This document shows positions 34,500 through 38,783 of a stretch of DNA of 64,000 nt, piece after piece. The first letter of the stretch is position 1. The number at the start of each line of letters is the position of its first letter. Position numbers and translations under genes: made by a program. Under the pieces are notes generated by a model. The model was not told where the DNA came from and made no database searches. It was given only the letters and a program-made list of their open reading frames with translations. Source of the stretch: Desulfonauticus submarinus (GTDB lineage Bacteria; Desulfobacterota; Desulfovibrionia; Desulfovibrionales; Desulfonatronovibrionaceae); assembly GCF_900104045.1 (NCBI RefSeq), contig NZ_FNIN01000008.1, positions 1-64,000 of the forward strand, read 5' to 3'.

Positions 34500-35084
34500 A
34501 TGCATTGTAAACGTTGCGCTAAATGCTGTCTTACCTCTCCCCCCACTCTTCACAAAGAAGACTTATCCCTTATAATTGAACAGAAAATACTAAAAGATAA
34601 GCTACTTGTATTAAGAAAAGGTGAAATCATATTTGATCATTTTAAGCAACAATATATTGTCTTAAAACAGGAACTAATTAAAATTGTTAGTACAAAATTA
34701 GGATGTTATTTCTTAAAAAATCAAAATTGTACTATTTATGAATATAGACCAATAGAGTGCAAGCATTTCTTCTGTCAAAACCAACAAAAAATTTTAGAAA
34801 TAAAAGACAAAAATTTATTACAACGCTTTGATATTATAAATAAAAATTCAGCTATTGGCGAGCTCATATCTGAACATGAACAAAAATGCTCTTTACAATT
34901 GATAAAAAAACTTCTCAACACAAAACAATATTCTAAATTAGAAAAGATAATAGAGTGGGACGAATATTTAAGAAAATCTTTAAAAGACAAAATATCTATA
35001 CCTGATAATCTACTCAATTTTTATTTCGGTCGTCCTGTAAAAGAAATAATAAATAACACCTCTCATCTAATCATTCACCTTTAG
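34500..35084 (+). CDS. YkgJ-like cysteine-cluster protein
   Basis: A 194-residue protein of the YkgJ/UPF0153 type, predicted to bind zinc or an iron-sulfur cluster. The N-terminus has C3, C6, C9 and C10 (HCKRCAKCC). A second group is in GCYFLKNQNCTIYEYRPIEC, followed by HFFC and a later Cys near residue 125. No visible ribosome binding site precedes the ATG. Members of this family often accompany radical or iron-sulfur enzymes. Its place just upstream of the ATP-driven reductase genes may be functional (inference), but a promoter-like sequence separates them. Confidence 0.7.
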   Translation: MHCKRCAKCCLTSPPTLHKEDLSLIIEQKILKDKLLVLRKGEIIFDHFKQQYIVLKQELIKIVSTKLGCYFLKNQNCTIYEYRPIECKHFFCQNQQKILEIKDKNLLQRFDIINKNSAIGELISEHEQKCSLQLIKKLLNTKQYSKLEKIIEWDEYLRKSLKDKISIPDNLLNFYFGRPVKEIINNTSHLIIHL

Positions 35085-35197
35085 TATTAAATTAAACAAT
35101 TCACCTTTGAGACTTACCTTGATTAAGTTTAAAATTTCCAATCAAATTCAATAAATTTTATCTATCAAATATCAATCAAATTATTATCTATTTCAAT

Positions 35198-35226
35198 TTG
35201 CCAAATAAAAATACTCCAAATAAGTA
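35198..35226 (+). promoter_or_regulatory. Possible promoter of the double-cubane reductase operon
   Basis: TTGCCA (35198-35203) and TAAGTA (35221-35226) are 17 bases apart, 35 bases before the ATG at 35261. Three ATCAAAT words lie just upstream (35143-35182) and could be regulator sites, though AT-richness makes chance likely. Confidence 0.4.
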
Positions 35227-35260
35227 TTTTATTCTATATTCTTTAAAAGGGGGATACATA

Positions 35261-36538
35261 ATGAATGATCAATACGCTGCCATGTGGGAAAAGCTTAATT
35301 TAGACTTAGAGGCCCACGATGCTTTATTAGAAGTTCTGGGAAAATTTTATAATGATATTTATCTTTCCCAAGAAAAAAGGCTTAGGGGTATGGAATATTT
35401 GGATTTTGTCCTTGCAGAAATACATGGATTACGAATAAAAGAATTAAAAGAAGCAAAAGAAAATGGACAAAAAATTATAGGAACCTTTTGTATTTTTGTC
35501 CCAGAAGAACTCACATTGGCAGCCAATGCTATTCAGGTTGGTTTATGTGCTGGAGCAGAAGCAGGTAAAGAAAAGGCTGAAAAACTTATCCCTAGAAACA
35601 CCTGTGCTCTTATAAAATCATTTATAGGCTTCAAGCTAGCCAGATTATGTCCATTTACTGAGTCATGCGATTTAATAATAGGTGAAACCACATGTGATGG
35701 CAAAAAAAAGGCATATGAGGTATTTTCCCAATATGTACCAATGTATATTATGGAGGTACCTCAACAAAAATACCTTAGCGATCGGGAACTATGGAAAAAT
35801 GAGGTGCTAAAATATAAAAATAAGTTAGAGCATATTACAAAAAACAAAATAACTCCTGACAAGCTCAAAAAAGCCATTAAAATAGTTAACGAGAAAAGAA
35901 AAGCATTACAGCGCCTTAATAAACTGAGAAAAGCTATCCCAACTCCTATTTCTGGTAGAGATGTGCTACTAATTAATCAAATTAGTTTTTACGATGATCC
36001 CCTTCGTTTTACTAAAAAAATAAATGAACTTTGTAATGAGTTAGAAGAAAAAATAAAAAAACAAGAAGGAATAGTATCTCAAGACACTCCCCGCATTCTC
36101 CTTTCTGGCTGTCCTATGGCCGTACCCAACTGGAAGCTACCTTATATAATAGAAAGTTCAGGAGCAATAATTGTGGGAGAAGAGTCTTGTATTGGCACTA
36201 GAAACACAAGAGATTTGGTAGATGAATCTGCTGAAACTTTAGATGAAATGATAGATGCTATTGTAGATAGATACCTTAAGATAGATTGCGCCTGTTTTAC
36301 ACCTAATCTAGAACGTATAGAGCATATTATTTCTCTAGCTAAGGAACTCAAAATAGATGGCGTTATTCACTATAATCTTCTTTTTTGTCAACCCTATGCT
36401 CACGAAAGCATTAAGATAGAAAATATTTTACGTGAAAAGAATATTCCTATTCTTTCTATTGAAACTGACTATAGTATGGAAGATGTTGAACAATTAAAAA
36501 CAAGAGTAGAAGCATTTATAGAAATGATTACTCCTTAA
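35261..36538 (+). CDS. 2-hydroxyacyl-CoA dehydratase-like / double-cubane cluster protein
   Basis: A HgdB-superfamily iron-sulfur protein of 425 residues. Start at 35261 because AAGGGGG lies about 8 bases upstream; the open frame extends further up only from a TTG inside the promoter. Candidate cluster cysteines are C115 (PRNTCALIKS), C145 (GETTCDGKKK), C284 (LSGCPMAVPN), C310 (GEESCIGTR) and C376 (LLFCQPYAHE), plus C130/C136. One large subunit with its own activator, rather than separate alpha and beta subunits, fits the double-cubane cluster proteins (DCCP). These reduce small molecules using ATP. The substrate is unknown. Confidence 0.85.
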   Translation: MNDQYAAMWEKLNLDLEAHDALLEVLGKFYNDIYLSQEKRLRGMEYLDFVLAEIHGLRIKELKEAKENGQKIIGTFCIFVPEELTLAANAIQVGLCAGAEAGKEKAEKLIPRNTCALIKSFIGFKLARLCPFTESCDLIIGETTCDGKKKAYEVFSQYVPMYIMEVPQQKYLSDRELWKNEVLKYKNKLEHITKNKITPDKLKKAIKIVNEKRKALQRLNKLRKAIPTPISGRDVLLINQISFYDDPLRFTKKINELCNELEEKIKKQEGIVSQDTPRILLSGCPMAVPNWKLPYIIESSGAIIVGEESCIGTRNTRDLVDESAETLDEMIDAIVDRYLKIDCACFTPNLERIEHIISLAKELKIDGVIHYNLLFCQPYAHESIKIENILREKNIPILSIETDYSMEDVEQLKTRVEAFIEMITP

Positions 36539-36553
36539 GAAAAGGGACGGCCA

Positions 36554-37351
36554 ATGGCAGTAGCTGGTATAGATATAGGCTCTCGATCGATAGAAATTGT
36601 AGTTTTAAAAAAAGATAAGGTTATTTTTCAAAACAAACTGCCTACAACCTTTAACCCATTAGATCAATTGAAAAAAATAATTAAAGGAATAAAATTTAAA
36701 CTAATAGTAACTACTGGATATGGAAGAGAGCTAATAAATAAAATCCCTTTAACATGTCCTATTTATACTATTACTGAAATTAAGGCCTATGCTTTAGGAG
36801 TGTACCACCTATACCCTAACGCCAAAACAATCCTAGATATAGGAGGCCAAGATACAAAGGCTATTTCTTTAGCGTCCAATGGAAAAGTAAAAAATTTTGA
36901 AATGAATGACCGTTGTGCTGCTGGAACAGGAAAATTCTTAGAATTCACAGCAAGTATATTTCAAATACCTATCCAAAAATTTGGTCATTATGCATTAAAG
37001 GGTAAAATAGCTTTACCTATAAATAGTATGTGTACGGTCTTTGCAGAAACAGAAGCTGTATCCCTTATGGCAAAAGGTGAAGCTCCTGAGAATATTGCCC
37101 TTGGCTTACACAAATCGATTGTAAAAAGATCTATTAATATGCTAAAAAGAGTTGGTTTGAAAACTCCTTTAATTTTTGCAGGAGGAGTAGCCAATAACCC
37201 CTGCGTAGTGCATTTGCTAAAAACAGAGCTAGATATCTCCCCCATAATTCCCCCAAATCCTGACACAATAGGAGCACTTGGAGCGGCATTATGGGGGAGA
37301 TCCCGTTTCAATAGAACTCAAAAAAATAGTTTAAATTTAAAAAAATCTTAA
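36554..37351 (+). CDS. ATP-dependent activator/reductase of the HgdC type
   Basis: A 265-residue ASKHA-fold ATPase homologous to 2-hydroxyglutaryl-CoA dehydratase activator (HgdC/CompA) and DCCP reductase. Nucleotide-binding motifs are AGIDIGSRSIEIVVL at the N-terminus and DIGGQDTKAI at 95-104. C121 (NDRCAAGTG) and C160 (NSMCTVFAE) correspond to the two cysteines per subunit that hold the bridging 4Fe-4S cluster of the dimer. It lies 15 bases downstream of its partner. The protein couples ATP hydrolysis to low-potential electron transfer. Confidence 0.92.
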   Translation: MAVAGIDIGSRSIEIVVLKKDKVIFQNKLPTTFNPLDQLKKIIKGIKFKLIVTTGYGRELINKIPLTCPIYTITEIKAYALGVYHLYPNAKTILDIGGQDTKAISLASNGKVKNFEMNDRCAAGTGKFLEFTASIFQIPIQKFGHYALKGKIALPINSMCTVFAETEAVSLMAKGEAPENIALGLHKSIVKRSINMLKRVGLKTPLIFAGGVANNPCVVHLLKTELDISPIIPPNPDTIGALGAALWGRSRFNRTQKNSLNLKKS

Positions 37352-37375
37352 AAAAATTATAAAAAATGGACATAA

Positions 37376-37403
37376 TTGACAAAAAAAATTATAAATTTAA
37401 TTT
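37376..37403 (+). promoter_or_regulatory. Possible promoter of the binding-fold/HAD gene pair
   Basis: TTGACA (37376-37381) with TAATTT (37398-37403), spacing 16, about 55 bases before the next start. The region is extremely AT-rich, so confidence is modest. Confidence 0.4.
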
Positions 37404-37457
37404 TAGAAATCCATCGTCCTTTTAACCTTAAACAAAAATTAAATAAAACTACACACA

Positions 37458-38285
37458 ATGAGTTTACCTATAATACCAGATCAAAGAAAAGACGATCTTC
37501 ATAATCTACATCTTTTAGATAAAGCAGACTTTATTCTATTTTTAGCTGGTAATCAATTTATGCTAGCTAAAGAACTTATAACTAATTTTCAAAAAAAATA
37601 TCCTGAAATAAAAAATATTTTTTATGAAACCCTTCCTCCTAAACTAGAGTTACAACAAATTCTAGCTAATGGAGCTAAGTTTCAAAATAAAATAATTCCT
37701 GGAAACCCAGATGTATATACCTCTGTATCTATTGAAAATATGCAAATTTTAGAAAAAGAAAATCTAATTTTCAAAGACTATTTCATTTATGCACATAATA
37801 AACTAAGCCTTATGGTACCAAAGGGAAATCCTAAAAAAATTAAATCTGTATATGATCTAGCCAGAACAGATATTACTATATCTCAACCAAATCCAGAAAT
37901 AGAAGATATCGCTCAATATACCATTAATATGTACCACCAAGCAGGAGGAAAAAATTTAGTCAAAACGATTATGAAGGAAAAGGTAAAAGAAGGAAAAACT
38001 ATTTTTACTACAGTTCACCATAGAGAAACCCCAAATAAAATTTTAAAAGGAGAGGTAGATGTAGGTCCTGTATGGCATACAGAAATTTTAAACGCCCAAC
38101 AACAAGGATTAGAAATAGAAGGAGTAGAAATACCTTCTCCTTTAAATCAAGAAACAGAAGTAAATTATTACGCATGTCTTTTAAAAAAAGCTAAAAATAT
38201 CGAAAATGGCAAAAGATTTTTAACATTTCTAAAATCAGATGTAGTAAAAAATATTTATACCAAGTATGGATTCATACCTGAATAA
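37458..38285 (+). CDS. Periplasmic-binding-fold protein without a signal peptide
   Basis: A 275-residue protein that looks like a type 2 periplasmic-binding protein related to molybdate/tungstate or phosphate binders. It has an early strand ADFILFLAGNQFMLAKELI, then GNPDVYTSVS, LMVPKGNPKKIKSVYDLA and VGPVWHTEI (a typical hinge/ligand segment). It ends FLTFLKSDVVKNIYTKYGF, the usual closing helix. Yet the N-terminus (MSLPIIPDQRKDD) is hydrophilic with no signal sequence, so it should be cytoplasmic. No transporter genes are adjacent and no Shine-Dalgarno is visible. It may sense or buffer a ligand for the neighbouring reductase. Confidence 0.65.
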   Translation: MSLPIIPDQRKDDLHNLHLLDKADFILFLAGNQFMLAKELITNFQKKYPEIKNIFYETLPPKLELQQILANGAKFQNKIIPGNPDVYTSVSIENMQILEKENLIFKDYFIYAHNKLSLMVPKGNPKKIKSVYDLARTDITISQPNPEIEDIAQYTINMYHQAGGKNLVKTIMKEKVKEGKTIFTTVHHRETPNKILKGEVDVGPVWHTEILNAQQQGLEIEGVEIPSPLNQETEVNYYACLLKKAKNIENGKRFLTFLKSDVVKNIYTKYGFIPE

Positions 38286-38287
38286 TA

Positions 38288-38758
38288 ATGTTTAAAGTAA
38301 ATATACCAGGGCATGGTCTACTATTATTAGAGCATCTTGTCTTAGATTTTAATGGAACTCTAGCCATTGATGGTAAAGTAAAAACTGATGTTATAAATAG
38401 TTTATCCACTCTCTCAAAATATTTCCATATTCATATTTTAACAGCAGACACTCATAATAATGTAAAGCAATATTTTAGTAATACAGATTATAAAATCCAA
38501 ATTATTTCTTCTCACGAACAAGTCAAAGCAAAACTAAATTTTATTCACCAGCTAGATCCTAATAAATGTGTAGCTATAGGTAATGGATATAATGATTATC
38601 TTATGCTTCAAAAGGCTAAACTAGGTATTGCGGTCTGCCAAGAAGAAGGGTTGTATTCAAAAACATTATTAGCAGCAGACATAATAGTACCCCACATTTT
38701 AGATGCCTTTCATTTATTTATTCATCCTCTTCGTCTTATAGCTACTTTACGAAACTAA
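38288..38758 (+). CDS. HAD-superfamily protein with variant motif I (P-type ATPase-like)
   Basis: A 156-residue protein consisting of a HAD core. Motif I reads LDFNGTLA: the nucleophile Asp is kept but the second Asp of DxDxT is Asn. Motif II is HILTADT (about 54-60) and the last motif is GNGYNDYLML instead of GDGxND. With no cap domain it resembles the phosphorylation domain of P-type ATPases; similar proteins are often annotated as ATPase P. The Asn change usually lowers hydrolysis and may make it a slow phosphatase or a phospho-sensor. It begins 3 bases after the binding-fold gene. Confidence 0.75.
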   Translation: MFKVNIPGHGLLLLEHLVLDFNGTLAIDGKVKTDVINSLSTLSKYFHIHILTADTHNNVKQYFSNTDYKIQIISSHEQVKAKLNFIHQLDPNKCVAIGNGYNDYLMLQKAKLGIAVCQEEGLYSKTLLAADIIVPHILDAFHLFIHPLRLIATLRN

Positions 38759-38783
38759 AAGAGCGACCACAAGGGTCGCTCTT
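38759..38783. terminator. Bidirectional terminator between the HAD gene and porB
   Basis: A 10-bp perfect GC-rich stem (38759-38768 with 38774-38783), loop ACAAG, between two convergent genes. It starts on the last base of the HAD stop codon. T-runs are short on both sides, but no other candidate exists. Confidence 0.7.

Follow-up and report, generated by a model that had tools for sequence, protein, structure and literature searches.

We analyzed a stretch of 64,000 nucleotides from Desulfonauticus submarinus (contig NZ_FNIN01000008.1, positions 1 to 64,000; referred to as the window) and found that it almost certainly encodes a double-cubane cluster protein (DCCP) together with its partner, DCCP reductase. 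The DCCP gene (35261-36538, forward strand, ATG start at 35261) specifies a protein of 425 residues. It is followed on the same strand, after a gap of 15 bp, by the gene for the DCCP reductase, an HgdC-type ATPase activator (36554-37351), then after 106 bp by the gene for a predicted cytosolic ModA-like binding protein that lacks a signal sequence (37458-38285) and, after a further 2 bp, by a gene encoding a HAD protein of a family with DxNGT and GNGxND motifs (38288-38758). Upstream lies the gene for a CxxCxxCC protein (34500-35084, forward strand), here called the Cys-cluster gene. All five genes had been named in an earlier interpretation made from the nucleotide letters and open reading frames only (the sequence-only reading), and all were found where it had placed them. 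All family matches at the locus exceeded their cut-offs, including those to PF06050 (416 bits) and PF03692 (35 bits).

A terminator-like hairpin with a 10-pair stem (38759-38783, reported on the reverse strand), recognized by consensus match alone, separates the HAD gene from the convergent Por genes. A promoter-like site upstream of the DCCP gene (35107-35135, forward strand) shows 10 of 12 matches and is a weak candidate, such sites arising about as often in shuffled sequence. For comparison we used 61 genomes of the same order and 297 from the phylum; genes beyond the window were called by ourselves, so that starts may be wrong and genes may have been missed. The Cys-cluster gene is present in 54 of the 61 order genomes and is unlinked to DCCP. 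The Cys-cluster protein, previously proposed as a partner of the reductase, was therefore rejected as a part of the system and is better regarded as the product of a near-universal housekeeping gene. The interval between the Cys-cluster gene and the Por genes is a variable site because its content differs among relatives: the two lie about 350 bp apart in a genome of another genus (G005) and are separated by two unrelated genes in a genome of the same genus (G002). Given this variation, the block of four genes from DCCP to HAD looks like an insertion in the lineage of the window.

The window DCCP scored 497 bits against the curated DCCP equivalog model NF040772 (cut-off 350) versus 122 bits against the HadC model (cut-off 700) and 86 bits against the BzdN model (cut-off 454). 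Among solved structures, those of the Carboxydothermus hydrogenoformans DCCP are nearest (49% identity across 416 columns). The activator matched TIGR00241 with 216 bits (cut-off 125), carries both cysteines that had been pointed out in it, C121 and C160, and has counterparts next to DCCP at 68 of the 108 loci compared. The source genome, which is 98.6% complete, holds one HGD-D gene, so that the description of the window protein as a single large subunit was right. A phylogeny, which the sequence-only reading had proposed as a means of overturning its own assignment, was calculated; the tree was a quick build with long outgroup branches, of which the broad split alone is used. Thirteen dehydratase/reductase-like proteins of the same order were set apart by a supported branch (98); the window protein was nested within the clade of long-form DCCPs (support 97). 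Model scores, the single HGD-D gene and the tree thus bear out the earlier assignment as an ATP-driven DCCP-type reductase with its activator rather than a classical 2-hydroxyacyl-CoA dehydratase.

Seven cysteines (77, 96, 115, 145, 310, 343 and 376) are invariant across about 110 DCCPs and all are present in the window protein; C130 is kept in 107 of 111. The cysteines previously listed for the large subunit were correct with respect to 115, 145, 310 and 376. C284, also listed, is replaced by threonine in C. hydrogenoformans and is not conserved among DCCPs, and 77, 96 and 343 had been overlooked. On the level of sequence, conserved cysteines and gene pairing, membership of the two proteins in the DCCP and DCCP reductase families is established, and the pair is of the standard two-gene type. 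The window DCCP is more similar to that of G005 (83%) than to that of G002 (76%), an order of similarity that may reflect transfer or differential loss; the loci concerned are L083 and L085.

The gene neighbourhoods of DCCP were surveyed in a census of 108 loci holding 109 DCCPs; the resulting locus table omits some activators and transporter genes that are visible in closer views of the loci. Long DCCPs (n=82) often have just the activator as a neighbour, or else selenium genes, and short ones (n=27) often belong to operons for NitT/TauT-type transporters. The neighbours carrying most information after the activator were, within four genes of DCCP, YedF (20 of the 108 loci) and SelD (11 loci), each being expected about 0.3 times if genes were placed uniformly. 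YedE, TusA, SelB, the LysR_Sec_metab regulator and PF11823 carriers were also found near DCCP. With the distance set to five genes, selenium genes accompanied 31 DCCPs from 20 families and none of 161 background genes, and they were seen with both long and short forms. The E. coli genes yjiM-yjiL precede ytiA, which encodes a PF11823 selenium/sulfur carrier. The source genome itself uses selenium, having SelD and YedF, and its SelD (G000:C16:22471-23394) is probably a selenoprotein because the gene contains an in-frame TGA.

Other contexts of DCCP were observed as well. A NifB-like radical SAM protein stands with DCCP and an exported ModA-like binder in three families (L165:2602-3615, L189:5833-6816 and L218:9173-10153); it reached 268-321 bits against a NifB cut-off of 343.65, and at E 1e-30 the three genomes are without any further match to NifB. 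Short DCCPs of about 380 residues were located in operons for NitT/TauT-type ATP-binding cassette (ABC) transporters at L084, L086, L097, L129, L131, L134, L135 and L215. The NitT-type permease beside them scored 169 bits as SaoP, under the cut-off of 295, and was not assigned to this family. Iron-sulfur proteins resembling DsrK/HdrC adjoin DCCP at L146, L152, L156, L159 and L216, the locus L159 also containing an MvhD-type protein; electron donation to DCCP is a possible role for these neighbours.

The HAD protein of the window matched PF08282 with 29 bits, and its predicted model resembles capless phosphatases of the KdsC/YrbI type (Foldseek). Its altered motifs, already noticed in the sequence-only reading, are real and family-wide: DxNGT and GNGxND replace the usual DxDGT and GDGxND, so that the window protein lacks the acidic residues by which a catalytic HAD phosphatase is recognized. 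As it retains the nucleophile D20 along with T52 and K82, it may still be catalytically active. A HAD of this family adjoins DCCP in seven further genomes of the order (G005, G018, G019, G025, G033, G045 and G049; 0.09 expected) and in four of the phylum (G138, G307, G327 and G346; 0.2 expected). In addition, selD is its immediate neighbour, in the same orientation, in G075, G089, G112, G221, G227, G236, G245, G250, G266, G301, G320 and G332; with G263 (locus L255) this pairing is found in at least 13 genomes from seven families, a count that is a lower bound. Members of the family also head or end PstSCAB-like transporter units, including one in G002 of the same genus; such units were observed at L104:4597-8613, L150:6667-10627, L243 and L246, and they occur without DCCP nearby too. 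In other genera of the family to which D. submarinus belongs (L112, L113, L115, L116 and L137), the HAD gene follows genes for a TIM-barrel protein (PF01261) and a nucleotidyltransferase (PF01467), and at L115 this HAD group also adjoins YedE, TusA and a DUF3343-like gene. The HAD tree was too weak to place the window copy in one of these context groups.

DCCPs have been proposed as the archetype of the benzoyl-CoA reductase/dehydratase superfamily and range from E. coli to methanogens. Their biological function was stated to be unknown in a 2025 paper (PMC11971306). The link of DCCP to selenium is already known in a provisional form: DCCP has provisionally been called selenium-linked (PMC10418091), and the STRING table of Lin 2015 includes genes for HgdB-like proteins and activases (PMC5322559). 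Upon selenium depletion of Methanococcus maripaludis, mRNA levels rise for YedE, a PstS and a molybdate-type binding protein (PMC11097638), a response that lends independent, though indirect, support to a tie between selenium and oxyanion binders. The literature, which was covered in part, yielded nothing relevant on the HAD family and no report of its pairing with selD.

Based on these neighbourhoods, we slightly favour the interpretation that the DCCP pair, along with the selenium-associated HAD, serves in the handling of selenium or another chalcogen. By analogy with the characterized pair, and with clusters and electron path carried over from the DCCP family, ATP hydrolysis would drive the transfer of low-potential electrons from the activator, a presumed dimer, by way of its own [4Fe-4S] cluster to a double-cubane [8Fe-9S] cluster in dimeric DCCP, which would reduce a small molecule. 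In the phylum, this substrate might for example be an oxidised or bound selenium or sulfur species, reduced towards selenide for use by SelD. The HAD protein is taken as selenium-associated because its family regularly adjoins selD and DCCP, and it could act as a phosphatase or as a regulator.

Several observations weigh against this assignment. None of the genes for SelD, YedE, YedF, SelA/SelB or DUF3343 adjoins the window locus, which is on contig C8, with YedF on C14 and SelD on C16. Selenium genes are missing from the surroundings of most DCCP loci, and HAD and DCCP are both found in some genomes where no SelD was detected; presence profiling is uninformative here, SelD being in as many as 264 of 297 genomes. 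The HAD protein had been suggested as a partner of the reductase, and this holds in part: it adjoins DCCP in the 11 other genomes listed above, but co-occurrence of the two by presence was not significant (p 0.11), although their linkage was. Most of the selD-adjacent HADs score lower against the profile of the window HAD than its close relatives do, and they may for this reason constitute a sister subfamily. Finally, the chance expectations given above presuppose uniform placement and take no account of shared ancestry.

It is also possible, albeit with less than even confidence on our part, that DCCP acts as a low-potential reductase on a small substrate of another kind, that selenium genes are close to it because of common regulation under anaerobic conditions or clustering within particular lineages, and that binding protein and HAD are mere passengers. 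The reduction of acetylene, hydrazine and azide by a characterized DCCP, the relevance of which is unclear (PMC11971306), would fit such a role, as would the short DCCPs in transporter operons and the fact that the window locus occupies the variable site flanked by the Cys-cluster gene and Por. However, selenium neighbours recur in about 20 families and with both forms of DCCP, and the HAD itself adjoins selD. These recurrent neighbours are what inclines us to selenium or chalcogen handling. A more elaborate version appears unlikely at present: the DxNGT HAD would be an unrecognized protein of selenium metabolism that, for instance, hydrolyses or gauges selenophosphate beside SelD, it would form together with the DCCP pair an ATP-driven route by which a selenium species is reduced to a form usable by SelD, and the cytosolic oxyanion binder would have been recruited to the same unit in this lineage. 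The census narrows the search for the function of DCCP to selenium and chalcogen handling, and the HAD family directly beside selD provides a second marker, both of which are open to genetic tests in culturable sulfate reducers.

The binding protein matched PF13531 with 122 bits. As had been recognized before, its N-terminus carries no signal sequence; the same is true of its close relatives, which share invariant HHR and GPxW segments with it. Its predicted model is confident, with ModA, WtpA and sulfate binders as the nearest folds. In the absence of an export signal, and with no transporter genes among its neighbours in the window, it does not qualify as an ABC substrate-binding protein. 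The family is well conserved but rare, being present in 20 of the 297 phylum genomes (E 1e-30) and in 7 of the 61 order genomes, two of these being weak matches. The sequence-only reading had envisaged a dedicated system in which this cytosolic protein senses a small ligand or presents it to the reductase, and had named conservation of the gene order as a check. We consider such a system improbable. Its gene does lie 106 bp 3' of the activator gene and 2 bp 5' of the HAD gene, and other oxyanion-type binding proteins are similarly placed at other DCCP loci, for example L085 and L167. Related DCCP loci in fact often hold a different oxyanion-type binder, either PstS-like or ModA-like with an export signal, which is in favour of the earlier proposal, and in the part of the DCCP tree around the window protein such PstS-like or ModA-like binders recur together with the HAD. 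However, in all 11 other genomes found to contain both proteins (G112, G133, G149, G158, G165, G236, G243 and G250 of the phylum; G005, G043 and, with a weak match, G004 of the order) the binding protein is encoded away from DCCP. Furthermore, the DCCP pair of the same-genus genome stands without it, and 22 other loci of the binding-protein family had no constant neighbour. In G005 and G008 a response-regulator gene adjoins it. A contig scan with the binding protein as query returned four loci and was uninformative on linkage to DCCP. The protein is probably a locally added oxyanion binder, whose tie to the enzyme, if any, would be hypothetical.

The assumption that the window protein is the beta subunit of a classical 2-hydroxyacyl-CoA dehydratase or class I benzoyl-CoA reductase with its partner encoded elsewhere, which could draw on the HGD-D domain in common, is largely refuted and extremely improbable, given that these enzymes require two different subunits and the genome has a sole HGD-D gene, that the scores are far under the HadC and BzdN cut-offs and that the tree groups the protein with DCCPs.

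The locus was compared with the closest known systems. HadBC (2-hydroxyisocaproyl-CoA dehydratase) and BzdNO (benzoyl-CoA reductase) belong to the same superfamily and likewise depend on an HgdC-type activator, but have two distinct catalytic subunits, whereas the window protein falls far below their models and no second subunit is encoded in the genome. The binding protein shares its fold with ModA, WtpA and Sbp (Z 22-24 over 220-245 residues) and differs from them by its low identity of 15-20%, the missing signal sequence, the lack of an adjacent permease or ATPase gene and its own HHR and GPxW segments. The HAD protein has the small capless fold of KdsC/YrbI-type phosphatases, yet only 12-19% identity and DxNGT/GNGxND in place of the usual acidic residues. 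The selenium clusters with YedE, YedF, SelD, DUF3343 and LysR_Se described in Lin 2015 (PMC5322559) contain HgdB-like and activase genes, as do many DCCP loci; the window differs in having no adjacent selenium gene, and its HAD family is not among the candidates of that study. YjiM-YjiL of E. coli resembles the window pair in that a DCCP-type protein and an activator are encoded side by side, but YjiM is a short form with 37% identity to the window DCCP. DCCP and DCCP reductase of C. hydrogenoformans (PDB 6ENO, 7YYL) differ from the window pair, whose clusters and activity are predicted and which is followed by genes for a cytosolic ModA-like protein and a HAD; they agree with it in the full-length long form, the 49% identity, the invariant cysteines and the adjacent activator gene.

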